A DNA stretch of 64,000 nucleotides from Saprospiraceae bacterium (GTDB lineage Bacteria; Bacteroidota; Bacteroidia; Chitinophagales; Saprospiraceae): contig JAHBTU010000003.1 of the NCBI GenBank assembly GCA_019638455.1, positions 1,054,001 to 1,118,000 of the forward strand, read 5' to 3'. This document shows, piece by piece, positions 1 through 17,862 of the stretch. The position numbers and the translations under genes were made by a program. Below the pieces are notes generated by a model. It searched no databases and was not told where the DNA came from. It was given only the letters and a program-made list of their open reading frames with translations. Positions within the stretch are counted from its first letter, which is position 1, and each line of letters begins with the position of its first letter.

Positions 1-3000
1 TCCAACGAAATGTTTCAATTCCAATCTGGTGCGATTAAGAGCGTGCCGACAAAAACGCTGGAACATGAAACGACCTTTGTTTCAATTCCAATCTGGTGCG
101 ATTAAGAGGCTTTCTGCGCTCGGTGGACTTTGGCGAGCAGGTGCGTTTCAATTCCAATCTGGTGCGATTAAGAGTCTGCAACGCCAGATGCAACGCACGA
201 AACGGTAATGTTTCAATTCCAATCTGGTGCGATTAAGAGAAAACGGCGCTTACGGAGAACTCCACCGCACGACCCTGTTTCAATTCCAATCTGGTGCGAT
301 TAAGAGTTCTCCGAATCCGGGCGGAACCAACGCTCAGGCAAGTTTCAATTCCAATCTGGTGCGATTAAGAGGTTTTGGGACGAAGAAGAAAACCAAACGA
401 AGGAAGGTTTCAATTCCAATCTGGTGCGATTAAGAGACCGGGCGATTTCCGTTAGAATTGTGCGAAATAATGTTTCAATTCCAATCTGGTGCGATTAAGA
501 GCAAAAAAACTGGGGTCGAATACCCGGCTCTTAGCGAGTTTCAATTCCAATCTGGTGCGATTAAGAGCATTCTGATTAGAAACGGGAACTCTTTCGTGAC
601 GATGTTTCAATTCCAATCTGGTGCGATTAAGAGTATCAAAGTATTTGCCAAGACCGGCACGACGAACGCGTTTCAATTCCAATCTGGTGCGATTAAGAGG
701 TTCACGTCCAGCGCCTCGGCGGGCGCGACGGTGTGTTTCAATTCCAATCTGGTGCGATTAAGAGGTAAACAACCCCCGGTATAGTGTTCAAACCCATATG
801 TTTCAATTCCAATCTGGTGCGATTAAGAGCGGATACATTTCCTGCATCAAGGAAGGGCAGCAATGTTTCAATTCCAATCTGGTGCGATTAAGAGGAGAAA
901 TGACAACCGACTTGGCAGCCTACGAAATGTTTCAATTCCAATCTGGTGCGATTAAGAGTTCAAACTTGAAAAGGTCGGTGAGCATACGGCGGCAAGTTTC
1001 AATTCCAATCTGGTGCGATTAAGAGCGTGTTGAAATTCTTCTCTATTACCTTCTGCCCTTTCTGTTTCAATTCCAATCTGGTGCGATTAAGAGCTGATAA
1101 AATGGTCGAGGGCTTGCAAAGCCGAATCTGTTTCAATTCCAATCTGGTGCGATTAAGAGAGAATTGACCAACTAACTGAATCGTTAATCAACAAAGTTTC
1201 AATTCCAATCTGGTGCGATTAAGAGAGTTTCGACAAGGGACGCGACTTGAAGGGCGCAGCCAGTTTCAATTCCAATCTGGTGCGATTAAGAGCCTCCGGG
1301 GAAAAGAAATTGTCCTTGTATGTTGTCTGTTTCAATTCCAATCTGGTGCGATTAAGAGTTATTACTTTCATCACTTATTCGAGTGGCCTTCAAAGTTTCA
1401 ATTCCAATCTGGTGCGATTAAGAGGGCGTAGCCAAAGCCTCAAGGAGTGGCATAAAGAAGTTTCAATTCCAATCTGGTGCGATTAAGAGTTTTGGGGTTT
1501 GCCTCACGTTGGAGTTCCTGCAAAAGTTTCAATTCCAATCTGGTGCGATTAAGAGTTCATGGATTCGAGGCTTTTGTAATCCGGGACTTGTGTTTCAATT
1601 CCAATCTGGTGCGATTAAGAGCCTGTACAACATACCCTCTTTTCCTCAAGGAAGAAAGTTTCAATTCCAATCTGGTGCGATTAAGAGCCCAACGCTCGTC
1701 CACCAGTACAAAGGCGGCGGCATGTTTCAATTCCAATCTGGTGCGATTAAGAGAAACCTGACGACAAGAAGAAAAAGAAGAAAAAACAAGTTTCAATTCC
1801 AATCTGGTGCGATTAAGAGCCAGCGTTTCAGCATCAATGCTTTGCGCGTAGGCAGTTTCAATTCCAATCTGGTGCGATTAAGAGTAGGCAGTTTCAGGAT
1901 GCGAAAACCGAAGCCCAAAACGGTTTCAATTCCAATCTGGTGCGATTAAGAGGCTGCCACAATGGGCGGGCATCGCCGGAGCCGACGCGTTTCAATTCCA
2001 ATCTGGTGCGATTAAGAGCCGCCGGAGCTATGAATTTTATAGGCGGTATCGCCTTGTTTCAATTCCAATCTGGTGCGATTAAGAGCCGCTTGTTTCCAGA
2101 GGTCATGTTGTCAGAGCCGGTTTCAATTCCAATCTGGTGCGATTAAGAGCCAGTCGGCTTTATCAATGAGGCCAAGCGAAATTTGTTTCAATTCCAATCT
2201 GGTGCGATTAAGAGCTAACGGCTACGGAGGTGGACGGTAGCACGACCAAGTTTCAATTCCAATCTGGTGCGATTAAGAGGCAGAAACATTCCATCCGGCA
2301 CACGGCCAATGCAAGTTTCAATTCCAATCTGGTGCGATTAAGAGCCTGAAAGTTCGCGTCTCGGAAAAACGATACCCGCGTTTCAATTCCAATCTGGTGC
2401 GATTAAGAGGTATTCTGCAATTCAGCGACACGACTCCCTCGTAAGGTTTCAATTCCAATCTGGTGCGATTAAGAGCCTCATAGGTCGCGGTCACAATCAC
2501 GCCGCATGGCGGTTTCAATTCCAATCTGGTGCGATTAAGAGGAATGCACTTGTATGATATGTGTTTTTTGTTTCTAAAGTTTCAATTCCAATCTGGTGCG
2601 ATTAAGAGCTTCGATGATGTAGGGCACCTGTCTTTCAAAGCCGGTTTCAATTCCAATCTGGTGCGATTAAGAGCGAAAATCCACAACAAGACCGACACAA
2701 CTTGGGTAAGTTTCAATTCCAATCTGGTGCGATTAAGAGCAGCGTGCATCCGTGTAATTAAACTGATGTCAGAGCAGTTTCAATTCCAATCTGGTGCGAT
2801 TAAGAGGTAGAGTTTGTTGTTGCCGGGTGAGGCTGAGTCGTTGTTTCAATTCCAATCTGGTGCGATTAAGAGCCGCAAAACCCAAACCCGCCGCCTAAAC
2901 GGATTCAAGTTTCAATTCCAATCTGGTGCGATTAAGAGCGCAAAACCCAAACCCGCCGCCTAAACGGATTCAAGTTTCAATTCCAATCTGGTGCGATTAA

Positions 3001-4854
3001 GAGACCCCACCCCAAAACACAAAACAAAACCATAAAAAAGTTTCAATTCCAATCTGGTGCGATTAAGAGAATAACCGCAACCGAGGTTGACGGGTCGGTT
3101 TCCAAGTTTCAATTCCAATCTGGTGCGATTAAGAGCAAAGTGGGGGGATGAATCGAATTTGCCGGAATTTGGTTTCAATTCCAATCTGGTGCGATTAAGA
3201 GAGATTGAAAGCACATTTAGACACACCGACATTGTTGTTTCAATTCCAATCTGGTGCGATTAAGAGCTGCATCCATTTTTCTCCCATAGGAAAAGCAAGT
3301 GGGTTTCAATTCCAATCTGGTGCGATTAAGAGACCAACCCCGCACCGGAGAAACAACCCTCACACAAGTTTCAATTCCAATCTGGTGCGATTAAGAGTCG
3401 CCCGACCTGCCGACCGTCGTAATTATTGGCAAGTTTCAATTCCAATCTGGTGCGATTAAGAGCAATCCGCCATTGTGTGACGGGACGCCGGAAAGTATGT
3501 TTCAATTCCAATCTGGTGCGATTAAGAGCGTTGAAACGACGCCCGCCAACGCGGAACAATGGAGTTTCAATTCCAATCTGGTGCGATTAAGAGCAAAAAC
3601 CCGTGTAATGAATTACCATTTGGGGAAATTGTTTCAATTCCAATCTGGTGCGATTAAGAGCGAATGATGTTTCGCGCACGTCGCCGCGCTCCATGGTTTC
3701 AATTCCAATCTGGTGCGATTAAGAGGGTTCCGGCAAGAAAACGGCTACGAGTTCACAGAAGAGTTTCAATTCCAATCTGGTGCGATTAAGAGCCCTGGCG
3801 GCAATATTGGCCGTTTCGTGTAGGGTCAGGTTTCAATTCCAATCTGGTGCGATTAAGAGAAGCGGCGTCGAATAATATACCGCTTTGGCTGTTCTGTTTC
3901 AATTCCAATCTGGTGCGATTAAGAGGCAGTGTAAACATCGGCAAATTCTACGCCGACTACATGTTTCAATTCCAATCTGGTGCGATTAAGAGTCGAAGTC
4001 AAAGTCAGCGATGATGTACTTTTCTAGTTTCAATTCCAATCTGGTGCGATTAAGAGCGGTCGTCACGGTCCAGCCGATTATCCTGCAAACGAGTTTCAAT
4101 TCCAATCTGGTGCGATTAAGAGCCCTGAGCATAGTAGAATTTACGGAGTTTTAGGTCGGTTTCAATTCCAATCTGGTGCGATTAAGAGGAGTTCAATTTA
4201 TGTGGGACAATCCGGAGTTGCCCAAGTTTCAATTCCAATCTGGTGCGATTAAGAGCCGAACGTAAAGCGTGAAGCATGGGGACGGCTTGGCATGTTTCAA
4301 TTCCAATCTGGTGCGATTAAGAGGCGGGCGATTCCGCAAATTCTCAAATTCCGAAAATTCGTTTCAATTCCAATCTGGTGCGATTAAGAGTTCGTCTGGA
4401 ACGGTGACTATCAGCGCAACGGAGGTGTTTCAATTCCAATCTGGTGCGATTAAGAGCCATCAGGAAACATCCAGCCGAGCCAGGCAGATATGTTTCAATT
4501 CCAATCTGGTGCGATTAAGAGCGTTCACGAGATTGCTCAATGTTCCTCACATGGCAAGTTTCAATTCCAATCTGGTGCGATTAAGAGCATGAATTTCAAG
4601 TGAAATTCAACGGCAAAATCCTGTTTCAATTCCAATCTGGTGCGATTAAGAGCCGCGCCGCAAAATCGGCACTCCAACACCGCCGAGTTTGTTTCAATTC
4701 CAATCTGGTGCGATTAAGAGGGTGCGGAACGGTTTGTTTTGCAACCAATAAATCCGGGTTTCAATTCCAATCTGGTGCGATTAAGAGACAACGTTACCGT
4801 GTGCGTTGTGGCGGCGCTTGTATTGTTTCAATTCCAATCTGGTGCGATTAAGAG
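1..4854 (-). CRISPR. Type I-B CRISPR array, 74 repeats in view, open at the left edge
   Basis: I counted 74 copies of a 30-bp repeat (first 12-41, last 4825-4854) with 73 complete spacers of about 33-38 bp. Bases 1-11 are the end of one more spacer, so the array continues outside the window. On the + strand each repeat starts GTTTCAATTCCAATCTGG and ends GCGATTAAGAG. The reverse complement ends in ATTGAAAC, the 8-nt 5' handle of type I-B crRNAs, so the array is transcribed leftward, away from cas2. The leader-proximal repeat is then the one at 4825-4854. I saw no degenerate repeat, as expected when the old end lies outside the window. Many small ORFs here are only translated repeats. Confidence 0.98.
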
Positions 4855-4978: not shown

Positions 4979-4979
4979 T
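4928..4979 (-). terminator. Inverted repeat at the cas2 3' end, possible terminator
   Basis: AAAAGTCGTCG (4928-4938) is perfectly inverted as CGACGACTTTT (4969-4979), 30 nt apart. The right arm touches the cas2 stop codon. On the minus strand the stem ends in TTTT followed by AT-rich sequence, so it could terminate the cas operon before the array promoter. The loop is long for an intrinsic terminator; a binding site for an integration host factor is an alternative. Confidence 0.45.
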
Positions 4980-5242
4980 CACAAGAAATTGTCCAGTTTA
5001 TTCTTCTCCCGCCCAATTATCTCCTTCTCCAACCACCGCTCTTCCCGACTGGCAAAAATAATCAAACTGTCCTCTTGCAAGTTCATCAACTTCCGGGCAT
5101 GATGCTGCAACTCCCGCAACCGAACCTCCGTTATCTCACCCTCGAACACCGAATTCTGAATCCAATGCAAATAACGCCTGCACAACTTGAGCATCTTGGC
5201 GACTCGTTTTTCGCCGACATCGTACACGAGAATAACATACAT
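4979..5242 (-). CDS. cas2: CRISPR-associated endonuclease Cas2
   Basis: This 87-residue protein has the normal Cas2 length and opens MYVILVYDVGEKR, the first beta strand of the ferredoxin-like fold with the conserved Asp (D8). Cas2 dimers bridge two Cas1 dimers in the spacer-integration complex. It is the last gene of the cas operon, 46 bp after cas1 and directly next to the leader, the usual order cas4-cas1-cas2-array. The ATG at 5242 is the only sensible start. Confidence 0.95.
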   Translation of the reverse strand: MYVILVYDVGEKRVAKMLKLCRRYLHWIQNSVFEGEITEVRLRELQHHARKLMNLQEDSLIIFASREERWLEKEIIGREKNKLDNFL

Positions 5243-5288: not shown

Positions 5289-6296
5289 CTACCACCAGAT
5301 TTTGAATGGCTTATAGGCGGGTTCCATACCTAGGATGTATTTGGTTAGTTTGTAGCACTCCAGCCGGACGAGGTATTTGTACGATACCTTTTTGTTCAGC
5401 GTCCGGTGCTGGATGGTTTCCTTGAGCCGCTCCTCGAGTGCCTTGAGGAACACCTGCTTGCCCGCGTTGTTGAGAAAGCAGCCGTTCACCGCATTGTCGA
5501 AATGCTTGGCCTGTAGCTCGCGCTTGTTCACCACGGTGAAAATGGTGCGGTCCACCAAAATGGGTTTGAACACCTCCGCCAAGTCGAGCGCCAACGAGTA
5601 GCGCCGCGCGCCCGGCTCGTGCAAAAAACTAATGGTGGGATTCAGTTGCGTGTGGTAAATCGCGTCCAGCACCTGCGAGTAGCACACCATATTGCCGAAC
5701 GAAATGAGCGCGTTCACCTCGTTGCCCGGTGGCTGCTTCATGCGGCCGCCCATCTCAAACTCGTTCAGGATGTGGTCGAACGCCGAGTAGTAAGTCTGCC
5801 GCACGTTGCCCTCCAGCCCCATCAGCGCGGGCACGTCGCGCACATCCGCAAGCCCCTCCCGATACTGCTCAATGGCCGCCATCTGGCCTGAAAGGTCGCG
5901 CCCCCGACCGGAGTAGTACTTCAGGTTCCGTAACATATTGGCCGATGCGCCTTCCACAAAACCGCACGCCAAATGCAAACGCCGCGCCGGGTCGAGATAA
6001 GCCCGCGTCTGCTCCACCTGCATCTTGCCCGCCAACAAATACTCCTTGGGCTGAAACGACCCCGAGTAGTGCTCATAGTAATCGAAAAAATGCACGCTCA
6101 CGCGCTTCTTGCCCAAAAACGTGTACAGCGCACTGTTGGCGTCCAGACTGCCAAACACAAAAAGCGTTTCCAGCCCCTCCACCGGGATGAACTTGGGCGG
6201 CAGCTCGCGTCCCTGCTCGTCCTTGGGCACAAAGCGCAACGTGTTGTCCTGGCGTTCGAGGCGGCCGGGGTTGAAGAGATAGTAAGTGTCTTTCAT
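5289..6296 (-). CDS. cas1: CRISPR-associated endonuclease/integrase Cas1 (I-B type)
   Basis: The 335-residue protein has normal Cas1b length. The metal-binding residues are visible: Glu in LMGLEGN (about residue 160), His in SFLHEPG (about 225) and Asp in LALDLAEVFKP (about 240). Cas1 cuts and joins new spacers at the leader-proximal repeat together with Cas2, and Cas4 usually helps select PAM-containing spacers. The start at 6296 lies only 10 bp from a hairpin repeat block, which separates cas1-cas2 from cas4 by about 1.7 kb. The adaptation genes may therefore have lost transcriptional coupling to the effector genes. Confidence 0.96.
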   Translation of the reverse strand: MKDTYYLFNPGRLERQDNTLRFVPKDEQGRELPPKFIPVEGLETLFVFGSLDANSALYTFLGKKRVSVHFFDYYEHYSGSFQPKEYLLAGKMQVEQTRAYLDPARRLHLACGFVEGASANMLRNLKYYSGRGRDLSGQMAAIEQYREGLADVRDVPALMGLEGNVRQTYYSAFDHILNEFEMGGRMKQPPGNEVNALISFGNMVCYSQVLDAIYHTQLNPTISFLHEPGARRYSLALDLAEVFKPILVDRTIFTVVNKRELQAKHFDNAVNGCFLNNAGKQVFLKALEERLKETIQHRTLNKKVSYKYLVRLECYKLTKYILGMEPAYKPFKIWW

Positions 6297-6306
6297 GTTG
6301 AAAAAT

Positions 6307-7340
6307 GTCAGAACATTGATTTGTGGGATTTCGGGATTGCCTTGATTGTTCGACTTTTTGTAAAAAAATCAGGTTGTCCCCAATTTCCCGAAAAAAATCA
6401 AGCACATCCCAAAATCCCACGAATCAAGGTTCTGACGAGTGACTGGTGATTTCTTTGTATTTCATGGCGGATTGAGTTGTTGAAAAATGTCAGAACCTTG
6501 ATTTGTGGGATTTCGGGATTGCCTTGATTGTTCGACTTTTTGTAAAAAAATCAGGTTGTCCCCAATTTCCCGAAAAAAATCAAGCACATCCCAAAATCCC
6601 ACGAATCAAGGTTCTGACGAGTGACTGGTGATTTCTTTGTATTTCATGGCGTATTGAGTTGTTGAAAAATGTCAGAACCTTGATTCGTTGGATTTCGGGA
6701 TTGCCTTGATTGTTCGACTTTTTGTAAAAAAATCAGGTTGTCCCCAATTTCCCGAAAAAAATCAAGCACATCCCAAAATCCCACGAATCAAGGTTCTGAC
6801 GAGTGACTGGTGATTTCTTTGTATTTCATGGCGTATTGAGTTGTTGAAAAATGTCAGAACCTTGATTCGTTGGATTTCGGGATTGCCTTGATTGTTCGAC
6901 TTTTTGTAAAAAAATCAGGTTGTCCCCAATTTCCCGAAAAAAATCAAGCACATCCCAAAATCCCACGAATCAAGGTTCTGACGAGTGACTGGTGATTTCT
7001 TTGTATTTCATGGCGGATTGAGTTGTTGAAAAATGTCAGAACCTTGATTTGTGGGATTTCGGGATTGCCTTGATTGTTCGACTTTTTGTAAAAAAATCAG
7101 GTTGTCCCCAATTTCCCGAAAAAAATCAAGCACATCCCAAAATCCCACGAATCAAGGTTCTGACGAGTGACTGGTGATTTCTTTGTATTTCATGGCGTAT
7201 TGAGTTGTTGAAAAATGTCAGAACCTTGATTTGTGGGATTTCGGGATTGCCTTGATTGTTCGACTTTTTGTAAAAAAATCAGGTTGTCCCCAATGCCCCG
7301 AAAAAAATCAAGCACATCCCAAAATCCCACGAATCAAGGT
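6307..7340. repeat. Tandem 182-bp hairpin repeats, six copies
   Basis: Five complete hairpins (6307-6436, 6489-6618, 6671-6800, 6853-6982, 7035-7164) and a sixth (7217-7340) repeat with an exact 182-bp period. Each 130-bp hairpin begins GTCAGAACCTTGAT and ends ATCAAGGTTCTGAC; the first copy has one change (ACATTGAT). The arms also pair internally (GGGATT and CCTTGATT with AATCAAG and ATCCC). The 52-bp linker carries, on the minus strand, the first seven codons of the adjacent GxxExxY gene (MKYKEIT) and then runs into the hairpin. Each unit therefore looks like a GxxExxY copy reduced to its start. Arms of copies alternate slightly (TTGTGGG or TCGTTGG). Confidence 0.9.
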
Positions 7341-7711
7341 TTAAATTTGTTATTATGTAGGCGTTTATACTCAACAGAACGGCTGCCAAAGTTGATGAGT
7401 AGGCCGATTTCGAGATTGAACGCTTCCAGATAATTGATTCCCTGTGCGAGATGAACATCTTCCAGTTTGATAACCGCCTTAATCTCTACGCAAATCACAC
7501 CTTCTACCAGAAAATCCACGCGCCGTGTGCCAATCTCGATGCCGCGATAAAAGATGGGCATTTCTTGTTCGCGCAAAAAACTCATACCCTGGTGGCGCAT
7601 CTCTATTTCCAATGCCCGCTGATAAATTACTTCTTGAAAACCATTGCCCAGTGCATTGTGCACCGTGAATGCGCAGCCGATAATCTTTTCGGTGATTTCT
7701 TTGTATTTCAT
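7334..7711 (-). CDS. GxxExxY family protein (PD-(D/E)XK nuclease-like)
   Basis: The 125-residue protein opens MKYKEITEKIIGCAF and has the family motif in GNGFQEVIYQRALEIEM. It also has RRVDFLVEGVICVEIKA, a likely D-(x)n-ExK nuclease core (about residues 63-79). The cellular role of the family is unknown; members often sit in repeat-rich DNA. Its start codon and first seven codons are the same sequence found in the linkers of the neighbouring 182-bp repeats. Its last codons (KP, stop) lie in the arm of the hairpin at 7217-7340. The gene is thus embedded in the repeat, with hairpins on both sides, and sits inside the cas operon in the same orientation. Confidence 0.85.
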   Translation of the reverse strand: MKYKEITEKIIGCAFTVHNALGNGFQEVIYQRALEIEMRHQGMSFLREQEMPIFYRGIEIGTRRVDFLVEGVICVEIKAVIKLEDVHLAQGINYLEAFNLEIGLLINFGSRSVEYKRLHNNKFKP

Positions 7712-7734
7712 GGCGTATTGAGTTGTTGAAAAAT

Positions 7735-7996
7735 GTCAGAACCTTGATTCGTTGGATTTCGGGATTGCCTTGATTGTTCGACTTTTTGTAAAAAAATCAG
7801 GTTGTCCCCAATGCCCCGAAAAAATCAGACTCTTCGTGGCTCTACATAAGCGAGTGATTGAAGTTGGGTTTGCCGCAAGTGAAAAATCAAATCCACCCCC
7901 GAAACGATATACCGAAAAAAATCAAATCCATCCCCGAAACGATATACCGAAAAAAAATCAAGCACATCCCTAAATCCCACAAATCAAGGTTCTGAC
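7735..7996. repeat. Expanded hairpin repeat at the cas4 3' end
   Basis: This is a seventh copy of the hairpin, with the same outer arms (GTCAGAACCTTGATT, inverted at 7982-7996) but about 262 bp long because the centre is expanded. The extra sequence includes a direct duplication (AAATCC, CCCCGAAACGATATACC) at about 7880-7950. Its right arm overlaps the last codons of cas4. It shares the variant CAATGCCCC with the copy on the other side of the GxxExxY gene, whereas the five tandem copies read CAATTTCCC. Confidence 0.85.
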
Positions 7997-8496
7997 GAGT
8001 AGCAAAAATCAAAATAACTACAGCTCTTGCAAATAGGCTTGTCAAGCACCGGCGGGCACCGTTTCAGCCCCACGATGCGCCGCACTTCCCCCTCCCAGCG
8101 CTCAATTTCCCGCACATCGGCCTCCGTCAGCGCGGCCACAGGCTCCGTCCTTTTCAGGTCCGGGTATTCGATGATGCCCGTGGCGCCTGACGCCCCGTGC
8201 TGGCGGAGCTTGTAGAGGTAGTACCGCACTTGCGCACGGTGAGCAGCCTCCACCGCCCGGCCCCGCTTGGTCTCGTGTACCACTTTGTTTTTGGGGTCAA
8301 AGAAGTCTATCTTGATACCGTCGAGTTCGACCTGGGTGTACTTGTCGGCCCGGCGGTCGTAGGCCGTGTCGCCGATGAGTTTGCCCTCTGCCACGAGGTC
8401 GCTGGTGTGTTCCATGCGGATTTCGTTGGCGTGGAGCCAGAGTTCCCGGTGGCAAACGTGATATAAGTTGATGAGTGTGGCCGTGATGTTCTGCAT
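7984..8496 (-). CDS. cas4: CRISPR-associated exonuclease Cas4
   Basis: The 170-residue protein has the Cas4 layout: an N-terminal Cys in YHVCHRELWL, a RecB-type nuclease core (GIKIDFFD, then VHETKRG) and three C-terminal Cys in PICKSCSYFDFCY for the Fe-S cluster. Cas4 trims prespacers and checks the PAM during adaptation. It starts 2 bp after cas3, so it is cotranslated with the effector operon. The final residues SSEP and the TGA stop come from the arm of the hairpin repeat at 7735-7996, so insertion replaced the native end of the gene just after the last Cys. It is probably still functional. Confidence 0.93.
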   Translation of the reverse strand: MQNITATLINLYHVCHRELWLHANEIRMEHTSDLVAEGKLIGDTAYDRRADKYTQVELDGIKIDFFDPKNKVVHETKRGRAVEAAHRAQVRYYLYKLRQHGASGATGIIEYPDLKRTEPVAALTEADVREIERWEGEVRRIVGLKRCPPVLDKPICKSCSYFDFCYSSEP

Positions 8497-8498
8497 AG

Positions 8499-11321
8499 TC
8501 AGAAAAAGTTGTCTGCATTTTCAAGTTTTGACTCATCCAGACCGGATTCTAATTTGTATAAATCTTCGTACCGTGTGAGCACGAAGTAATTTTCAAAGCA
8601 GTCCGTTTCATCGCAAAAACACCGTAATCCCAGCCGGTTTTTGGGGCTGTCGAATGTCGAAAGCGTGAACTTTGACAAGATGCCTTGCAAGGTTTTCTGT
8701 TCGATTTTGCTGACAACGTAATCCGCTGGCTTTTCTTTGTTTGCACAAAGTTTCCGATAAAACTGCCAGACGGCCGCACCATTTATTTCGGGGCAATCTT
8801 TTTTCCAAATGCCCGATTTTTCTAAAAAGTGGAGTTCGTTTTCGTTGAAAAAATCTTCTTGTTCACCTTTTTCGTTTTCAATTTTCAAGGGCAAAGCCAG
8901 TGGGACAAACACCGAAAGCGTCGGTTGGTCAATGAGTTTGAATTTTTCGTGTGCTGCCGGGAAATCCAATTTTTGAAAAAGCGGCAGGTAGTTGTCTTGA
9001 AAATTTTCCATTACTGTGCTGCGGTTTTGCTGTTCGATTCTGTCAAAAACCCGATCGTATAATTTCCCGAAGTCTTTGTCTTCCAAAACAGCGCGGCGTT
9101 CAATGGCCGACATCTCTCGCATGGCTTCCAAACGGAAATCCTTACCATATAGAATGCCCGGCTCATTCACTTTAAACAACCAAACCTCGCAGCCCTTTTT
9201 GTTCACATTGCGGTTCACCCGCCCGGCAAGTTGTTCGTCAGAGTCAATCAGCGACACGTTTTTGAAGCCCAAATCCATGTCAATGTCCACGCCCGCTTCC
9301 ACCACTTGGGTGGTGATGAGCAATACCTTCAACCCTTTTGTTTGTTGGTGTTTTTTCAAAAAAGCGATGATTTCGCGGCGGCGGCTTTCCAAAATTGTCC
9401 CGGACAGTACGAAGATTTCGTCAAAAAACTCGTCCAACTTCTCAAACTCGCCTCTGAACTCGGTAGCCGATTTTTTGAAAATAAACTCGACTATCGTGAA
9501 CACGCGCCCCTTGTATTCGGGCAGCGTAGCGCGGGCGCGCGATTTTTCCAAGACAGTAGCCGCCAGTTCAGGCAAGGTGATAGGCTCTTTGCCAGATGCT
9601 TCCAACAAATCGAACCGGAAAGTTACCCGCCCCCGAAAATTCGGGTTCAGGAAGTATCGCTTCGGGTCAGGCAGCAAATCTGTTACCTGTGGCAATGGTC
9701 TTTTGGCAGCACGGCGCACGGCTTCGATTTTATCCAATCGTGGCAGGGTGGCCGACATCAGGATGAAGCGGATGTTGAAGCATTGGCCATATTCGTTGAG
9801 CAAAAAAAGCATTTTGTCCCATTGTTTAGGCGGGTACGATTGCAATTCGTCAAGGACTACCACCGAGTTCGCTAAGCGGTGCATCAGGTAGATGTCGTCT
9901 TTGCGGTCGGATTTCAGGATGTCGAAAAAGCGGATGTGCGTCAGCAGCGTGAAAGGGTAGAGCACGAAAAGATTTTGCAAAAAATCCCGCTTTTTGTCGC
10001 CGCAAGTGCCATCTTCTTTGGCCTCCTCGCCCTCATCTTCTTCCCCTGTTGCCGTTTCTTTCACTTCTGATAAGGTTTGAAAACCCGCCCGACTGTGCAG
10101 CAGCGCGATATCGTCGTCGCTCAGAAGCAAGGTGTCTTTGATACTTTTGTGCGTTTGCGTTATGAGTGTGGTGTACGGAAAGACGTAAAAGACCTTGTTC
10201 AACTCAGGGTTGGCTCGCATCAGTTCGGCTACTGCCAGCATTGAAAGGTTGGTTTTTCCGCCGCCCGTCGGGGCTTCGAGGTAAAAAAGTCGCTGGTCGC
10301 GGTGCCGTTCCAATTGTCGCAGCACTTCTACCGTCATTTCGGTGCGCAACAGGTTCAGGTTGTCACCGTTTGGCTCGGTCGGATGTTGGAGCGGATTACT
10401 CGATTCAAAAAACTTGTAAGCGAGGGCATTGTACTCTTTTGCTGTTCGAGCAGCGCGGATGAGTGCGGCCCGTTTGGCCTCGCTGAACACCCCCCAATGC
10501 TGCTCCGTCTCCATCTCCATTTCATAGCCATAGTGCCAGGTAGCCATGTAGTCCGAGGCCGTGAGCAGGGAAAAGTTGAGGCGAAGGAGGGCGAAAAGGG
10601 CGAAATCAGTCGGCTTTTGAGCAAACATCTTTAACACGCCTTCAATGTTTTGAAAATACTTTTCAGAAACCTCAACGGCTGGAAACCCTATGTACATCTG
10701 CAAATAACCGCCCAATTGAGCGCGAAACTTCAGAAACTGGCTGTTCGTCACGCGCTGTTGCGGCTGTTTCAATTTCGGGCTATGGTGCAACAAAATCGTG
10801 TTGCAAAAAAGCAAAGCCAACACTGAGAGTTTCTTCTGGTCGTCTGTCGAAGGCACTTCCAAGCGGATTTTTTCCAAATGATAGACTGAAAAAATATAGC
10901 CGCCCAAATCCGAATGCCCGGAGCAAGGTTGGAATATCTCCGGGAAATTGCCTTGAAACAGCGTATCTTCATTTTGCATCCGCTTTGTTTGAAAATGCTC
11001 GTTGACTTTGCCGAAATCATGAAAAGCGATTGTGTTGACAAAGAAGGTCAATGCCCATTTGGCTGCGGCAGATGGGTCGTCAAACTTCAAAGATTCGACA
11101 AGTTGGCACGTCAATCGCTCCACAACGGCATCCAAACCATGCAACTCGCAAATTTTCCGAGCATAACCAAGCACCAAGTCCAAATGCTCGCCCAGTGTTT
11201 CTGCCTTCTTGTCAGCGGGGTCGCCAGGTTTCGGAATGTGCGCAAGGTATTTTTCGGCGTTGGCCAACAAGCCGTTTTCGACCCGTATGGCCTCGCCGAG
11301 CATGATGGACAAATGTTTCAT
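8499..11321 (-). CDS. cas3: CRISPR-associated helicase/nuclease Cas3 with N-terminal HD domain
   Basis: The 940-residue protein degrades target DNA after Cascade binding. HD nuclease residues are visible in TLGEHLDL (about 44) and AFHDFGKVNEHF (about 100). Helicase motifs follow in order: Walker A EAPTGGGKTNLS (about 350), DExx-type LDELQSYPP, motif III LMSATLP, then TTQVVEAGVDID and DEQLAGRVNRN (motifs V and VI). All key residues appear intact. It starts 3 bp after cas5 and ends 2 bp before cas4, a tight operon. Length and the HD-helicase fusion are normal for type I-B. Confidence 0.96.
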   Translation of the reverse strand: MKHLSIMLGEAIRVENGLLANAEKYLAHIPKPGDPADKKAETLGEHLDLVLGYARKICELHGLDAVVERLTCQLVESLKFDDPSAAAKWALTFFVNTIAFHDFGKVNEHFQTKRMQNEDTLFQGNFPEIFQPCSGHSDLGGYIFSVYHLEKIRLEVPSTDDQKKLSVLALLFCNTILLHHSPKLKQPQQRVTNSQFLKFRAQLGGYLQMYIGFPAVEVSEKYFQNIEGVLKMFAQKPTDFALFALLRLNFSLLTASDYMATWHYGYEMEMETEQHWGVFSEAKRAALIRAARTAKEYNALAYKFFESSNPLQHPTEPNGDNLNLLRTEMTVEVLRQLERHRDQRLFYLEAPTGGGKTNLSMLAVAELMRANPELNKVFYVFPYTTLITQTHKSIKDTLLLSDDDIALLHSRAGFQTLSEVKETATGEEDEGEEAKEDGTCGDKKRDFLQNLFVLYPFTLLTHIRFFDILKSDRKDDIYLMHRLANSVVVLDELQSYPPKQWDKMLFLLNEYGQCFNIRFILMSATLPRLDKIEAVRRAAKRPLPQVTDLLPDPKRYFLNPNFRGRVTFRFDLLEASGKEPITLPELAATVLEKSRARATLPEYKGRVFTIVEFIFKKSATEFRGEFEKLDEFFDEIFVLSGTILESRRREIIAFLKKHQQTKGLKVLLITTQVVEAGVDIDMDLGFKNVSLIDSDEQLAGRVNRNVNKKGCEVWLFKVNEPGILYGKDFRLEAMREMSAIERRAVLEDKDFGKLYDRVFDRIEQQNRSTVMENFQDNYLPLFQKLDFPAAHEKFKLIDQPTLSVFVPLALPLKIENEKGEQEDFFNENELHFLEKSGIWKKDCPEINGAAVWQFYRKLCANKEKPADYVVSKIEQKTLQGILSKFTLSTFDSPKNRLGLRCFCDETDCFENYFVLTRYEDLYKLESGLDESKLENADNFF

Positions 11322-11324
11322 GGC

Positions 11325-12182
11325 TCAAAAAAGACAGATGATTTTGGCTGTTCCGTCGGACAATCTGACTTGCCAAAGGGGCGGCATTTTGGCGTTCTCC
11401 CGAAACGTGCAATCTGTAAAGGCGAACTCGGCAAGGTCATATTGGACAAACTTCATCGGCTTGACTTTTCGAGGTTCTGTGCTGACGGATGAAAACAAAT
11501 CCGGTGTTTCAGTCTCTTCGGGGTCGCCAACGAAAAACTTAATCGGAAGCCGCTCGAAATTGATGTAACTGGCCGCATTGACCATTTTGCCCAAATCAAT
11601 GTCAAAATCCAACTCGGCTTTCCCTTCTTTCACAGAGCCTTTTCGCACAAAAACCGAGCTCACCCGAAAATCGCCCGTCGCCGCGAAAGGTTTAAATTCA
11701 TATTCTCGCACCGATTCAGCCTCCCACCAGGCGGCACACTCATTCTTCCCAAAATAAGGCAAATATTCAGCCTCACCTGCCTGAATGCGCTTGTGCAGAA
11801 GTGCTTGTTCTTCCACGTCGAGGTCAAGCAGCAAGTACACTCGATAAGCCGGGCGACGCAGGGTTTGCTCCGTGACGATAAGGTTGCCGTCGGCATTGGC
11901 ATAGCCCACCGTGTTGGTGTATTTGATAACGGTTTTGACAAAATTGCCCTTATCGTGCCCGAGCGGCTCGACGCCCACACGCAAGTCCCGGAATTTGTGA
12001 TAGTATTCCGGGAAAACACCCTGCCGTTGGTAGCCCTCCAAACCAGCTATTGCACCAAGTATGCCAAGCAAAGCAGGCTTATGCAGAAGGTTGAAGGTCA
12101 GTTGCAAGCCCTCGTTCACGTCCGGCTTTTTAAAGACGCCGAAGTCGCCCTTCAAGTCGAAGGAAATCAAGGTCTGTCGCAT
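11325..12182 (-). CDS. cas5: Cascade subunit Cas5 (I-B, Cas5h-like)
   Basis: The 285-residue protein opens MRQTLISFDLKGDFGVFKKPDVNEG, the typical first strand and loop of Cas5b/Cas5h, followed by LLHKPALLGILGAIAGLEGY. Cas5 is a RAMP-fold subunit that caps the 5' handle of the crRNA in Cascade. It is packed between cas7 (3 bp) and cas3 (3 bp). The subtype call rests on gene order and this N-terminal pattern; I did not compare it with a profile. Confidence 0.9.
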   Translation of the reverse strand: MRQTLISFDLKGDFGVFKKPDVNEGLQLTFNLLHKPALLGILGAIAGLEGYQRQGVFPEYYHKFRDLRVGVEPLGHDKGNFVKTVIKYTNTVGYANADGNLIVTEQTLRRPAYRVYLLLDLDVEEQALLHKRIQAGEAEYLPYFGKNECAAWWEAESVREYEFKPFAATGDFRVSSVFVRKGSVKEGKAELDFDIDLGKMVNAASYINFERLPIKFFVGDPEETETPDLFSSVSTEPRKVKPMKFVQYDLAEFAFTDCTFRENAKMPPLWQVRLSDGTAKIICLF

Positions 12183-12185
12183 GGC

Positions 12186-13130
12186 TTACTGGTGAATTTC
12201 GTGATGAATAGCCCCGGCTGGCACGCCCTTGACAGTCGAAGCGGTGGAGTCATACCAGATTTCGATTTTCTCGACGGCATCCTTGACGTGGGGGCGGGAG
12301 AGGATTTCGCCCACTGCCGAGAGGTCAATCGTGCGTTTGTCATCGTCACCGATGCTGACGAGTTCCACAAAAGAAGGCAGCACCAATTTGGAGCTGGGTT
12401 TCAGCTGCACCCACAGCAGCAGTTCGTTCTCAGTGCCGGATTTGGCCGAAGAGTCGTACAGCGTTACGCCGCGCGAAAGGCCGGCTTTGAGTTTGGAGAT
12501 GTCGTCGTCATTCAGGGCTTCGCCGCCGGAGAGGGCAACGAGGTCGCTCAGGTTGTGCGGGTTGACGGAAAAATGATGGACGTAGTGGCCCTCGCGGAGT
12601 TTGAATTGTGTGCCGAGGGTGGTTTGCATCGAATCGGCACTTTTTTCATTGGCGTTTCGGAAAGGCGAGGCAATCTGCTCGGAATAAATGGCATTTTCAG
12701 GAAAACGATTGACACCGTGCGTGATTTGTGCCGTGCCGTGAATCGAAAGGCTTACTCCTTTTTCCGCGAACGTGCCGCCGAACAGGCGCACATCTGTACA
12801 GGTGAGCAGGTTTTTCAACACCTCTTTCCGGTTCTTCACATCCTTGTCTTTTCCCTCGTTTTTGGGAAACTCGCCGAACAATTTGATGTAGGTTTCGCCC
12901 AAGTCGCGGGGCTGCATCTCGTCGCTCAAGGTTTTGAAATAAAACACTTCGCGGGCGTTGTGGACCTTGTTCAACCAATTTCGTACGCTGTATTTCAACA
13001 CTTTGTCGGTGGCATACACCGTACCATCGGGCAGGGTGCGGGGCTGGTGGGTGAAGTCGGCGTTGTAGTTGGAGTTGATGGACTTGACGATGACACATCC
13101 GAAGACGCGGTTTTGGAATGCAGTGGCCAT
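12186..13130 (-). CDS. cas7: Cascade backbone subunit Cas7 (Csh2-like)
   Basis: The 314-residue protein resembles Csh2-type Cas7 of type I-B: an N-terminal FGCVIVKSINSNYNADFTHQP, then TDVRLFGGTFAEKG and SIHGTAQITHGVNR in the middle. Several Cas7 copies coat the crRNA guide and flip out every sixth base. The same geometry makes the guide-target mismatch pattern in the cas6-cas8 gap meaningful. It starts 33 bp after cas8 and ends 3 bp before cas5. Confidence 0.93.
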   Translation of the reverse strand: MATAFQNRVFGCVIVKSINSNYNADFTHQPRTLPDGTVYATDKVLKYSVRNWLNKVHNAREVFYFKTLSDEMQPRDLGETYIKLFGEFPKNEGKDKDVKNRKEVLKNLLTCTDVRLFGGTFAEKGVSLSIHGTAQITHGVNRFPENAIYSEQIASPFRNANEKSADSMQTTLGTQFKLREGHYVHHFSVNPHNLSDLVALSGGEALNDDDISKLKAGLSRGVTLYDSSAKSGTENELLLWVQLKPSSKLVLPSFVELVSIGDDDKRTIDLSAVGEILSRPHVKDAVEKIEIWYDSTASTVKGVPAGAIHHEIHQ

Positions 13131-13163: not shown

Positions 13164-15038
13164 TCAGTTTGTAGTCGTTTCAGTTTCTGGAGCATTGACA
13201 TCGGATTTTTTATCCGAGACTAACAGGTTTTCAGAAAAAACACCTGCAAGGAAAAGAGGCAGCAAATCGCGCACATTGCCGTTTTTGGGGTAAGCGAGCA
13301 CTTCTGCACTTACTGCTTGAAACCGCTGAGAATAGTTGACGTGCTTGTACCGTTTGAAAAAATTCGCAATGGCGAGTTTTAGGCGCGCAGAATCAGTCTG
13401 TGCCAAAAAAGGTTCGAGGTAGCCGAAACTTTTGTCTCCGGATTTGGAACTCCACGAGATGCGGTCAACGACTTGTCCGGCAGCAAATGCGAATTGCTCG
13501 TCGGTTTCAAGATGAGCCTCGCCCCGTGCTACCGCGTCTGTGTGCTGGCGGAGTTCGATGATATTGTCAGGCATAAAACGTGGGTTGGGTTTGGTTGAAA
13601 AATATGAGTGTAGGCTGAACAACAGGTTCAGTTTGGTGCGAATATTCAGGCTTTCGGAGTTGTACTTTCCCTCCCATTTGTCCAATCGGATATCGTCCAA
13701 AATACCTGTCAGCAAAATTTCCTCGATGGCATTCCCGGTCACGCTCTGTCGCTGGCTTTTGTAGATGAAGTCGTAGAAAGCCTTGCGGTATTTCATCGCC
13801 AACAGAAAGGCGTTATGGGTTTTGGTGTAAGCGGGGTCCATGTCGTCGAACCAGTGGAAAATCCAGTCTTTGTCTTTTCTACGCACTACAAGGGCATTGT
13901 TGAACATAGGTGGCAGTACCCGATTCATCAAATCCACGACCGTCGTCAACGACATGTATTCGTTCGTGCCGAACAAGTCGCGCACCTTCCATGGTGAGCC
14001 GTCAGGACTAAGGTTAAAGTCAAAGCGGCTGACAAAATCGAAATCCCGGATTTCTCCGAAAGCCATAAAAAGCAAGTAATAATTACCCACTTCGCCGTGT
14101 TTCTTTTTCCACAATTCCTCTATGATTTCGAGATAACCTTTGCGCTTTTCGCCTCCTGAAACAGCGTCGTCCCTGAAAATTTTGAACGCCTGCTCGCGTT
14201 CGTCGGCCATGATGAACAATGGCAAGGGATTGGGAAACAATTTGCGGCGGCTCAAATCCGAAAAATCATAGAGCGTTTGCGCCTCTTCGGAGGAGATGCG
14301 CCCGGCGATGTCGAATGTGGCCGATTGATGCAGAAGAAAAGGTTTTTTCAACGGGAAGCCGTTGAACCAGTTGCTCGTGCCGTGCAATAAATCGGGCCTT
14401 TCAGAGTCTGCCAAATTATAATCTGAAGTATTGAACAGTTTTTCTTTCAGGTACTTGCGGTTGGCTGCTACATACGTCTCGAGGGGCAAGTCAAGATAAA
14501 AAATGACGTACTCTCCATCTTTCACTGACGGATATACCTCCGCTTTTGCCAGCCAACTATGCAAACGGTCGCGGTCGCTCAGTGCAGCTCGGAAGGCTTC
14601 GGCGATGCGTTTTTCTTCGTCGTTTTCGAGCAACGCGACAGCTTTAGCAAAATAACCATTAACCCGGTCGTACACCTGCGACTTTTTTTCTGCCTGATTG
14701 GTCAGGTATTGGTCGCCGCCTTCCAGATTAGTGCGTTTTAGAGCAAAGCAGAATGGCGAAGCAGAATGAATGGCTTTAATCGGCGTGTCGAAGCATTTAT
14801 TGGTGTCCACCATCCAGGCGACCTGCGACCAAGCGGCGCACTTTTCAAACCAATCTTCTACCGTAGTTTTTTTACTGAATACACCTGCAAAGGCCAACTC
14901 GTCGGCAATGCTGATTTGCTCAGGAGTGCTTTCTACCCGAAGGACGATGTGCAAACCTTCTTTCGGTGCGAGGTTGAGGTTGCGGAAAATCGGGTCGTCA
15001 ACGACTGTTTGAGTGAATTGGACAAGTTCTTTTAGCAT
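13164..15038 (-). CDS. cas8b: Type I-B Cascade large subunit Cas8 (Cas8b/Csh1-like)
   Basis: From the ATG at 15038 this is a 624-residue protein starting MLKELVQFTQTVVDDPIF. An upstream in-frame TTG at 15110 would add 24 residues, but ATG is preferred because MLKEL is a natural I-B large-subunit start. It is assigned as Cas8 because it is the large, poorly conserved gene between cas6 and cas7. The large subunit recognises the PAM and recruits Cas3. A predicted promoter lies about 160-190 bp upstream in an unusually long gap, so the effector genes probably have their own transcript. That promoter overlaps the predicted target of the crRNA-like RNA. Confidence 0.85.
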   Translation of the reverse strand: MLKELVQFTQTVVDDPIFRNLNLAPKEGLHIVLRVESTPEQISIADELAFAGVFSKKTTVEDWFEKCAAWSQVAWMVDTNKCFDTPIKAIHSASPFCFALKRTNLEGGDQYLTNQAEKKSQVYDRVNGYFAKAVALLENDEEKRIAEAFRAALSDRDRLHSWLAKAEVYPSVKDGEYVIFYLDLPLETYVAANRKYLKEKLFNTSDYNLADSERPDLLHGTSNWFNGFPLKKPFLLHQSATFDIAGRISSEEAQTLYDFSDLSRRKLFPNPLPLFIMADEREQAFKIFRDDAVSGGEKRKGYLEIIEELWKKKHGEVGNYYLLFMAFGEIRDFDFVSRFDFNLSPDGSPWKVRDLFGTNEYMSLTTVVDLMNRVLPPMFNNALVVRRKDKDWIFHWFDDMDPAYTKTHNAFLLAMKYRKAFYDFIYKSQRQSVTGNAIEEILLTGILDDIRLDKWEGKYNSESLNIRTKLNLLFSLHSYFSTKPNPRFMPDNIIELRQHTDAVARGEAHLETDEQFAFAAGQVVDRISWSSKSGDKSFGYLEPFLAQTDSARLKLAIANFFKRYKHVNYSQRFQAVSAEVLAYPKNGNVRDLLPLFLAGVFSENLLVSDKKSDVNAPETETTTN

Positions 15039-15196: not shown

Positions 15197-15228
15197 CAAA
15201 GGTAAAGGCTAAAAAATAATCAAAACAA
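15197..15228 (-). promoter_or_regulatory. Predicted cas8 operon promoter (TTG-N21-TACCTTTG)
   Basis: On the minus strand, TACCTTTG (15204-15197) fits the Bacteroidota -7 consensus TAnnTTTG. TTG (15228-15226) lies 21 nt upstream as the -33 element. Transcription would start near 15190 and give a leader of about 150 nt to the cas8 ATG. The same TACCTTTG box precedes plsC and ctlX in this window, which supports the reading. Confidence 0.55.
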
Positions 15229-15251
15229 TAGGTGGTTAAATTAAATTTTTT
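15220..15251 (+). promoter_or_regulatory. Predicted target site of the crRNA-like RNA in the cas8 promoter
   Basis: Bases 15220-15222 are TCA, a PAM used by several type I-B systems. From 15223 the sequence AAACAATAGGTGGTT aligns without gaps to the guide AAACAGGAGGTTGTT at 12 of 15 positions. Mismatches are at 6, 7 and 12; after position 15 the match falls to chance level. Positions 6 and 12 are not base-paired in type I effector complexes. The site covers the predicted -33 element of cas8. The limited match would favour binding without Cas3 cleavage. Confidence 0.5.
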
Positions 15252-15331: not shown

Positions 15332-15450
15332 CTCGCAATCGCACCGTTTTGGAATTGAAACAAACAGGAGGTTGTTTTTTTTAAATCTCCATTTTAATCG
15401 CACCATTTTTGGATTCCCAACGGCTGCCAGCAACGGCAGCCGTTTTTGTT
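15332..15450 (+). ncRNA. CreA/CreR-like crRNA-resembling RNA (pseudo-repeat, guide, pseudo-repeat, terminator)
   Basis: Pseudo-repeat 1 (15332-15361) matches the array repeat in crRNA orientation at 25 of 30 positions and keeps the full ATTGAAAC handle. A 29-nt guide follows (15362-15390, starting AAACAGGAGGTTG). Pseudo-repeat 2 (about 15391-15421) keeps TTAATCGCACCA but has lost the handle (ATTCCCAAC). An intrinsic terminator closes the unit. It lies antisense to cas6-cas8 in the gap where CreTA and CreR elements occur in other I-B loci. The promoter is not clear; the AT-rich TATTTTAA at 15302-15309 is the best candidate. It could instead be a dead mini-array, but the retained handle and terminator argue for a functional RNA. 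Confidence 0.65.
15421..15450 (+). terminator. Intrinsic terminator of the crRNA-like RNA
   Basis: CGGCTGCC (15421-15428), loop AGCAAC, GGCAGCCG (15435-15442), then TTTTTGTT. The 8-bp stem is perfect and the T-run lies only on the + side. It therefore terminates rightward transcription coming from the pseudo-repeats, not the leftward cas transcript. It begins at the last base of pseudo-repeat 2. Confidence 0.85.
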
Positions 15451-15509: not shown

Positions 15510-16301
15510 TCAACTTTTTTGCAGAATAGCCCCACAACCGAAGCCTTGTGCATTTTCTTTGCCAAATCCCGCCAGCAACCCCAATTCCAGCAATTCCTGC
15601 GGCACGTCCAGTTCAAAATCGAACATCCACCCCTTCACCCGCGTCTGTGCCAAAGTGCCGCTTTTGATGGTGACAAGTTTTGACTTCGGTGCCGGCCCCA
15701 CCGGGCGAAACCCGAACTGCGCGGCATCCCAGAATTTGGGCGGCTTGTGACCGGTAGCGGCGGCGTATTTGTCCAACAGGTTGAGAAACAGCAACCTGTT
15801 GAAATCCGGGTCGTCGGGGTGCAGATATTCGTCGGGCTGGTGATCGGGGCGTTTGCGGGCTATGACCAAAGGCGACAGCGTACGGATGCGCACTGGCTCA
15901 GGGCCGTTGGGCAGTTGCGGCGGGCGCATTTCCACCGTCTGCACCACGAAGCGCACTTGACTAAGGCGGTCGCCAAGGCTGAATTGTTGTTCTTGGAACA
16001 AGCCGCGCACAAACTCTTCCGCCGTGCGGTCGAGGTAAAAGCCGATGACGAAAGAGATTTCCCGGCTCCCGATGTGCAGCCGATCGCCCTCTATGCTGCG
16101 CCTCGGCACGTTGAGTTGGGAGAAACAAAAGAGTTTGAAGGACTTGCGCCCGGTGGCGTACCCGCGCTGGTGCAAAAAGGCGGAGTATTCGGCATCGGCG
16201 TTTTGCAACACCTTGTATATCCATGCCGAGAGTTCGTACTGATAATTGACTGGCAGCACGGGTTTTTCGTCGAGGCAGCGAAGCGTGATGTTGAATTGCA
16301 T
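15510..16301 (-). CDS. cas6: CRISPR pre-crRNA endoribonuclease Cas6
   Basis: The 263-residue RAMP protein has the Cas6 C-terminal glycine-rich loop LLAGFGKENAQGFGCGAI and normal length. Cas6 cuts each repeat 8 nt from its 3' end and leaves the AUUGAAAC handle. That cut would also process pseudo-repeat 1 of the crRNA-like RNA just downstream. The gene is separated from the WYL regulator by 103 bp and from cas8 by about 470 bp. It may be transcribed with the regulator and apart from cas8. Confidence 0.92.
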   Translation of the reverse strand: MQFNITLRCLDEKPVLPVNYQYELSAWIYKVLQNADAEYSAFLHQRGYATGRKSFKLFCFSQLNVPRRSIEGDRLHIGSREISFVIGFYLDRTAEEFVRGLFQEQQFSLGDRLSQVRFVVQTVEMRPPQLPNGPEPVRIRTLSPLVIARKRPDHQPDEYLHPDDPDFNRLLFLNLLDKYAAATGHKPPKFWDAAQFGFRPVGPAPKSKLVTIKSGTLAQTRVKGWMFDFELDVPQELLELGLLAGFGKENAQGFGCGAILQKS

Positions 16302-16404: not shown

Positions 16405-17325
16405 CTAAAACCTCATTTTCTCCACTTCCCGCTGGAGGTGTTTGCGCAAAGAATCGGGCGCGACCACCTCAATATCGAGATGGTAAAAGCCAAGAATGAA
16501 GTTGGAGAGGCCGTAGAAATTGCGGTTGACATCGGCCTGAAAGTCGAAGAATTGAGGATTGTCCGTCGGTTCTATGTAATTGCGCGTCAGAGGATACCGC
16601 TCGATGAGTTCGTTGTAAGCTCCCACACTGAGGCGCAAATGAACATTCGTCTGCTGGTTGGTGACAATTCTGAAGGGGTCTGTCTTCATGATATTGTGAT
16701 GCCCCTCGTGCTGCCAGGGGTGGTCAGTGAGTTTTACGCGCACAAAGCGCGTAATCCGAAAATGCTGGACTGCATTTTTACTTGTCTCAAAGGCATGAAG
16801 CATATCGTCGCCAGCGGCGATGTGAAAAGGCTCCACGAGACGGTCGCTAATCTGACCACTGTGAGAGGAGCGATACTCTTCGAGCACCACCATCCGTTTT
16901 TCGGCTTTTGCCTGCTCGAGCAAGTCAATCTTGGTCAGGTGCGGCTTGCGCAGGTTGGCAAAACCAAGTCGGCTGTAGTCGTAAAGCGAGTGCAATTTTT
17001 GCTTTAGCGCCGATTGTCTTTCGGGTGTAGTGCGCAGGTTGTCAATGGCTTCGTAGAGCAAAGCCCGTTCTTCTTCTGAAAAATAGAGCAACTCGCCCGC
17101 TTTTTTCAAAGGCTTGTCTTTGATGAAAAAATAGCGGTATTTTTCATCGTAATCCATCTCAAATCCCGCGTTCACGAAGGCTTCAAAATCGCCAGTGATA
17201 GTGTCTGGGTGTACCGCGTAATTCGTGGCGAGTTCCTGCTTGGTGTAGCGTTTCGGCTGCTCGATGATGGCACGCAGGATGCGCAGCAGGCGTATTTTAG
17301 TGCCATATTCTCTATCTTTTGGCAT
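16405..17325 (-). CDS. WYL-domain transcriptional regulator of the CRISPR locus
   Basis: From the ATG at 17325 (MPKDREYGTKIRLL) the protein has 306 residues; an upstream TTG at 17346 is less likely. The N-terminus is a winged helix-turn-helix (YTKQELATNYAVHPDTITGDFEAF). The C-terminal half resembles a WYL ligand-sensing domain and WCX extension, although the literal Trp-Tyr-Leu is replaced by DDMLHAFE. WYL regulators commonly flank type I and III cas operons and are thought to sense nucleic-acid ligands. As first gene of the leftward operon it probably controls cas6 and perhaps itself, alongside the RNA in the cas6-cas8 gap. Confidence 0.82.
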   Translation of the reverse strand: MPKDREYGTKIRLLRILRAIIEQPKRYTKQELATNYAVHPDTITGDFEAFVNAGFEMDYDEKYRYFFIKDKPLKKAGELLYFSEEERALLYEAIDNLRTTPERQSALKQKLHSLYDYSRLGFANLRKPHLTKIDLLEQAKAEKRMVVLEEYRSSHSGQISDRLVEPFHIAAGDDMLHAFETSKNAVQHFRITRFVRVKLTDHPWQHEGHHNIMKTDPFRIVTNQQTNVHLRLSVGAYNELIERYPLTRNYIEPTDNPQFFDFQADVNRNFYGLSNFILGFYHLDIEVVAPDSLRKHLQREVEKMRF

Positions 17326-17862
17326 TGGCAAGATTGTTATAGTCAACGCAAATCAGCCCCGTCCGCTTTACTTGGCCGGGCAATCCCCTGAGTACAGGGT
17401 CTGACAAGGTGGTTTTGAACGAACGGCGCTCGCAATCCTTTGAAAATTATACAAATCAATCAAGGAAGTCCCTGCCTTGCCAACCGGCAGGTTCAAATCC
17501 TCTTCAATCTGGGTATAAATTCGTGTTTCTGGTGCAATGATAACAACTCGCCCTAAAAACCACTCAATATAACAGTGCCTTTTTCCCAAAAAAACGGCCC
17601 CGCCCAACCAACGGCGCCTCTCGCCCAACCAACGGTCGCTCCAGCCCACCTTCGACCGTTCCTCAATTGATAGCCGCCACTCGCAAGGTTTTCCGGCAGC
17701 CGCGTAGCATGGCACCTGCACTTTTGTGTCATCAATGCAATCGCGACCATTCACCACAATATCTTGGCATGAAAACCCTCCTACTGTTGCTGCTTGCGCT
17801 ATTAGTGGCTCTAATGCCTCGATTCGTACCTGTCATCGCAAACATTTAAACTTATCCAACAC
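17326..17862. other. Intergenic region with a dispersed GC-rich repeat
   Basis: No credible gene was found in these 537 bp between the divergent WYL regulator and a T9SS cargo gene. A 129-residue minus-strand ORF has no signal peptide or recognisable domain. Bases 17357-17383 are one copy of a dispersed repeat also found at 34151, 34431 and 45530. A duplicated CGCCCAACCAACGG lies near 17600-17632. Promoters for both divergent genes should be here, but no strong TAnnTTTG box stood out. Confidence 0.6.

Follow-up and report, generated by a model that had tools for sequence, protein, structure and literature searches.

Small crRNA-like RNAs that direct Cascade to a promoter near their own gene have been described in several systems. 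The cas-regulating RNAs named CreR (Liu et al. 2023, Cell Host Microbe; PMC13131331, PMC12737573, PMC12948488) are known, as these accounts summarize them, for types I-B, I-E and V-A (PMC13131331), and their repression is released by competition with crRNAs or by anti-CRISPRs (PMC12737573, PMC13131331). Haloarchaeal CreA contains a first pseudo-repeat (psiR1) with a handle and a second (psiR2) that lacks this handle and retains the 3′-handle part (PMC8501985, PMC9458426), and follows the rule that seed positions 1–5 and 7–11 pair with the target beside the PAM (PMC8501985). CrePA (Shu et al. 2025, via PMC12737573) and the viral Racr (PMC10651486) are further relatives in kind.

The mini-CRISPR unit reported here lies on the + strand at 15332–15444 of the window (the whole stretch of 64,000 nucleotides analysed), where it is flanked by cas6 and cas8b within a complete type I-B locus. 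It resembles CreR, as outlined in the accounts cited above, in being a mini-CRISPR with degenerate repeats inside a type I-B cas locus and in the partial, PAM-adjacent complementarity of its guide to a cas promoter, and it may also resemble CreR in being free of a coupled toxin, none being evident in the window; it differs in its Bacteroidota host, in a target lying over the −33 region of a TAnnTTTG promoter and in its YCA PAM, and autorepression is here a prediction. With haloarchaeal CreA it shares the cas6–cas8 interval, the psiR1/psiR2 handle pattern and the PAM-side pairing at positions 1–5 and 7–11 (PMC8501985, PMC9458426), whereas the promoter it targets reads into cas8b, the window yielded no conserved creT, and the trend of divergence is reversed, psiR1 being less diverged than psiR2 (25/30 versus about 22/30). 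As in the published summary of CrePA, a crRNA-like RNA would let Cascade repress a neighbouring promoter, here by prediction, but no KilA-N toxin gene was seen adjoining the unit. Like Racr, as far as that source describes it, the unit is a solitary repeat-like RNA gene; unlike viral Racr, it is chromosomal, stands in a cas locus and has a guide with a matching promoter site. Full-text literature searches, which left the host list of Liu et al. 2023 outside their reach, returned no case of a Bacteroidota CreR; the window unit is probably a further CreR of the type already described, and Liu et al. 2023 may already list it.

Structure of the unit and its cas locus

The cas genes are arranged as cas6-cas8b-cas7-cas5-cas3-cas4-cas1-cas2, all on the − strand. 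PADLOC profiles matched Cas8b, Cas7b, Cas5b, Cas3b and Cas6b, and the NCBIfam models for Cas1b and Cas5b scored above cut-off, in agreement with the original prediction of a Bacteroidota I-B locus. Profile matches place cas6, the presumed processor of the unit RNA, at 15510–16301, cas8b, the cas gene that the targeted promoter reaches first, at 13164–15038 (PADLOC Cas8b, E 2e-89), cas7b at 12186–13130, cas5b at 11325–12182, cas3 at 8499–11321, cas4 at 7984–8496, cas1 of the I-B type at 5289–6296 (TIGR03641, 434 bits) and cas2 at 4979–5242. A gene for a WYL-domain regulator (16405–17346, − strand; profile match) lies upstream of cas6, and the CRISPR array occupies 12–4854 on the − strand, with 74 exact repeats in the window, and runs on to its left. 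Between cas1 and cas4, tandem 182-bp repeats, mostly 97–100% alike, fill 6296–7323 and 7691–8000; a gene of the PD-(D/E)XK_3 family (7334–7711) is inserted in them, with one more repeat copy beyond it.

Within the unit, psiR1 (CTCGCAATCGCACCGTTTTGGAATTGAAAC; 15332–15361, + strand) agrees with the array repeat CTCTTAATCGCACCAGATTGGAATTGAAAC at 25 of 30 positions, keeps the 8-nt 5′ handle ATTGAAAC intact and is identical to the array repeat over its final 12 nt; it is the top non-array match to the repeat in 59 kb on both strands. It is followed by the 29-nt guide AAACAGGAGGTTGTTTTTTTTAAATCTCC (15362–15390), which starts AAACAGGAGGTTGTTTTT and is flanked by both pseudo-repeats, and then, beginning 59 nt downstream of psiR1 on the same strand, by psiR2 (15391–15421), in which the 3′ handle part TTAATCGCACCA is present and the final 8 nt are gone. 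As the runner-up among non-array matches, psiR2 agrees at 20/30 positions ungapped or at 22/30 with one inserted base (a by-eye count), and the third-ranked match (19/30) is unrelated. The degenerate repeat with its handle, the 29-nt guide and the handle-less second repeat of the original prediction were all found within the coordinates proposed. An intrinsic terminator had also been proposed, with a perfect 8-bp stem; the terminator (15419–15448, + strand) is present, and its stem, AACGGCTGCC-AGCAAC-GGCAGCCGTT at 15419–15444 followed by TTTTTG, is longer (10 bp) and slightly stronger (−19.3 kcal/mol, z −4.6). The hairpin is kept in the congener G311.

When the whole 5.77-Mb genome was searched by pattern, as in all our genome-wide tests, 142 repeat-like matches with at most 3 mismatches were found; among the matches listed, 141 share the strand of the array, and the unit is the only one on the other strand. 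A single spacer-like guide is enclosed by two degenerate versions of the local repeat inside the cas locus, and a chance origin of this repeat-guide-repeat unit is excluded. Rfam gave no match above gathering thresholds for the unit, the sole sub-threshold match (U12) being due to chance, and the unit's own promoter was not found. Immediately 5′ of psiR1 lies an inverted repeat, AAYTGANNNTCARTT, which was considered as a WYL operator and rejected, as it shows no enrichment upstream of cas8 (3 observed versus 2.2 expected, two of the three being orthologous).

The degeneracy of the repeats, and a guide of 29 nt where the array spacers read are 34–38 nt, might be taken to mean that the unit is a non-functional fossil, either an array end or a misplaced repeat-spacer. 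We regard this as very improbable given the conserved handle, the retained terminator, the PAM-flanked promoter site and two features described below: guide and site evolve together, and independent lineages share this arrangement.

Target site at the putative cas8 promoter

The original prediction named no target. We found one at 15223–15251 on the + strand (AAACAATAGGTGGTT...), preceded by the PAM TCA at 15220–15222, with which guide positions 1–5, 8–11 and 13–15 pair. Mismatches fall at positions 6, 12 and 7; those at 6 and 12 are as expected for the flipped-out bases of type I R-loops, and that at 7 is a true seed mismatch, so that the seed (1–5 and 7–11) matches at 9 of 10 positions. This mismatch, common to the window and G311, is the main doubt on the site; in the CreA of H. 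hubeiense (Halorubrum/Haloarcula-type), all seed positions tested were essential (PMC8501985).

On the − strand, about 159 nt 5′ of the cas8 ATG, the sequence TACCTTTG (15197–15204) fits TAnnTTTG, the −7 consensus of Bacteroidota promoters (PMC9723704), and the spacing puts a putative −33 region TTGTTTTG at 15221–15228, overlapped by the PAM and the seed. The cas8 promoter is predicted to be of the Bacteroidota type. The offset from TAnnTTTG to the target is alike in the loci of G311 (L027), of a second congener, G386 (L038), and of an Arcicella MAG (L047) at 31–34 nt, and in that of a Bacteroides MAG (L044) at 27 nt; it is also alike in L039, from a record labelled Cellulophaga sp.

In the 5.77-Mb genome the combined PAM and seed pattern YCAAAACANNAGGT has a single occurrence, the one at the cas8 promoter, and its reversed control has five; the probability of a chance match in a promoter region of 300 bp is accordingly on the order of 1e-4. 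One could still suppose that the guide is immune or trans-acting, with its true target in a phage or at another chromosomal promoter, and that the cas8 site is coincidental. The window seed, falling short of 10/10, would suit such a reading; yet the guide has no phage match, the pattern is found nowhere else in the genome, and ten other loci have equivalent sites upstream of cas8 with mostly unrelated guides, which makes it extremely improbable.

Evidence for the PAM comes from a related I-B array in an Odoribacter MAG (L106), in which two spacers perfectly match Parabacteroides phage PDS1 and Bacteroides phage C1_85S2P, both protospacers being flanked by TCA (TTCA and TTTCA). Support for TCA is confined to these two perfectly matched spacers, since two weaker protospacer matches (92%) of related arrays are flanked by CCG and TTA. 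No spacer matching a phage turned up in four other arrays (L051, L050, L087 and L055). The window's own array likewise has none, and four of its newest spacers are absent from viral contigs, so that TCA is a putative PAM for the window's own genome.

Occurrence of the unit in relatives

A survey of 398 genomes of the family found 15 with a Cas8 homologue. Both congeners with a close Cas8 have kept the unit: G311 (92% DNA identity) and G386, in which both the repeat and the guide are different. The unit is present as well in another genus (G183, locus L109). Among 42 genomes of the genus, DNA of the unit was detected in G000 and G311 only, G386 being too diverged for that search; within the genus, the unit is confined to genomes with this Cas8.

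Scanning 84,980 species genomes yielded 78 Cas8b loci, mostly of Bacteroidota. Taken together, unit, guide and site were found in 11 loci: those of the window and G311, and nine others, namely L038 of G386, L039, L044, L047, L109 and the loci of Chitinophaga qingshengii (L042), Arsenicibacter rosenii (L052), a Cytophagales MAG (L099) and a MAG labelled Planctomycetota (L065), where the unit lies on cas8's own strand. Guides are mostly unrelated between loci, and in each of the 11 a site flanked by YCA lies upstream of cas8; the seed matches perfectly in 9/11, that is, in all but the window and its genus-mate G311.

No detectable unit of this kind was present in 61 of 70 scan loci. Units occur in 8/27 loci in which cas8 is separated from the preceding gene by 200 bp or more or has no gap length assigned, versus 1/43 others, the one being L052, which falls there because an antisense ORF entered its gap calculation. 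Where cas8 stands close behind the preceding gene, a separate promoter for such an RNA to regulate is presumably lacking. With regard to absence or drift among relatives that keep the cas operon, which the original prediction had proposed to check, the result is thus mixed to favourable: the unit is retained in both congeners with this Cas8, and guide and site co-evolve and do not drift, while the unit is absent from most loci of the close-following kind. Co-variation of the pseudo-repeats with the local repeat is modest, being clear for psiR2 of L038 and L039 and for the handle of L042.

Pairing and co-variation of guide and site

In a strict screen of 72 regions (handle at least 7/8, seed 10/10, YCA, within 1 kb of cas8), 8 scored positive, versus 0.05 expected from first-order Markov shuffles. 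Dropping the PAM requirement gave nine sites in those eight loci, all nine flanked by YCA; matches in L073 and L078, which have no YCA, fit the shuffle background (mean 2.3) and were rejected. A seed of 9/10 with the PAM was found in 10/72 regions, the window and G311 joining at this level, versus 1.5 expected in shuffles. Because this background (1.5 loci per 72) is noticeable, the case for the window site leans on its relatives, on genome-wide uniqueness and on co-variation. A laxer handle criterion added the L039 pair; a pair in L041 was a palindrome artefact and was discarded.

Pairing beyond the seed was assessed in nine pairs, leaving out G311, a near-duplicate, and L039, which was found later and has positions 13–16 in its score. 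Positions 13–17, which lay outside the selection of sites, match in 34/45 cases (p ~6e-9 for a background of 0.33), whereas positions 6, 12 and 18 match at chance level (7/27), as do positions 19–29 (counted over 19–23 and 25–29). The pattern is that of Cascade R-loop pairing with a 6-nt periodicity, limited to about 17 nt.

Co-evolution of guide and site is seen in two related pairs of loci. In the first, the window and G311, a T-to-G change at position 14 of the guide is accompanied by the same change at site position 14; in the second, L047 and L039, guide and site share the changes at position 4 (G to A) and at positions 13–16 (TGGT to AATA).

Small reading frames ahead of cas8

The position of the unit in the cas6–cas8 interval, as in H. 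hispanica CreTA, raises the question of whether it is the CreA of a CreTA/CrePA-type addiction module, in which the repressed promoter would drive a small toxin before cas8 and loss of Cascade would be punished. Some loci have candidate frames between promoter and cas8: one of 44 aa in L038, predicted to have a single membrane stretch, one of 39 aa encoding a zinc ribbon in L047 (and also in L039), and one of 70 aa in L044; CreT ORFs may, moreover, be as short as six codons (PMC8501985). Against this, the leader ORFs of the window have just 27 and 28 aa, are unlike those of G311 (29 and 18 aa) and are not conserved, the sites of L052 lie directly at the cas8 start and leave no room for a toxin gene, and in L099 the cas8 frame begins about 90 bp past the site. 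We therefore consider an addiction module unlikely for the window unit. It is somewhat less unlikely, though still doubtful, that the CreR-repressed promoter of Bacteroidota often drives a lineage-specific small protein, toxin or regulator, the RNA then acting as both thermostat and antitoxin with interchangeable cargo.

The zinc-ribbon frame (e.g. MKKHCVLVNRPVKCMNCGFASQLDIDEDCQICNNLFFIQ, about 40 aa) recurs in L047, L039 and, frameshifted, L042, about 60–130 bp upstream of cas8; the L047 copy has no Pfam match. The 44-aa frame of L038 (MLQNEKTFEINIWGLKIKCVNYPAWVVPIILIATIIILATIIML) spans about −131 to 0 relative to cas8, its 3′ end overlapping the cas8 start.

Predicted mechanism

The unit most likely represents a CreR, a crRNA-like autorepressor RNA of the cas operon (probability about 0.87 on the sequence comparisons given here). 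The original prediction of a CreA/CreR-type RNA is supported by the target at the cas8 promoter and by the guide-target rule in independent relatives; it had left the choice between CreA and CreR open, and we favour CreR because the promoter of the window reads into cas8b with no conserved toxin ORF between.

In the predicted mechanism, the unit would be transcribed from the + strand, its RNA cut by Cas6 within both pseudo-repeats, and the processed RNA would enter the I-B Cascade, which would then bind the TCA-flanked site at 15223–15251 over the −33 region of the cas8 promoter. Bound Cascade would sterically block the promoter; since complementarity ends after about 17 nt, binding should prevent transcription without recruiting Cas3 cleavage. 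Cascade would in this way repress its own operon by negative feedback and, by analogy to the published CreR model, array crRNAs or anti-CRISPR proteins may draw Cascade off the site, lifting the repression.

These results would place RNA-guided self-repression of Cascade in Bacteroidota, with strong comparative evidence of selection on the periodic pairing over about 17 nt. They also provide an estimate (YCA) of the PAM of Bacteroidota I-B systems and a natural design for promoter-blocking guides, and point to a possible readable sensor of anti-CRISPRs in these bacteria.

Other units seen in relatives

In Spirosoma fluviale (L062, 13689–13777) and a Spirosoma MAG (L063, 13763–13843), a single repeat-guide-repeat directly follows cas8-cas7-cas5 and is itself followed by a long terminator hairpin. 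Judged by ORF layout, no recognisable cas3, cas1, cas2 or array lies in the next 8 kb. The seed of the guide, TTTGG-T/A-AAGGA, is conserved and the remainder has diverged; a target of this guide was not found. Such an arrangement resembles a Cascade that lacks Cas3 and has a single, fixed regulatory guide.

Perfect 11-bp inverted repeats formed by the 5′ half of psiR1 and the 3′ half of psiR2, with the guide inside the stem, are present in L109, L047 and L052; the window unit has no such 11-bp inverted repeat. Upstream of cas8 in L052, three more ATTGAAAT handle-like sites occur beyond the unit on the strand opposite cas8, one of them within a full repeat copy.
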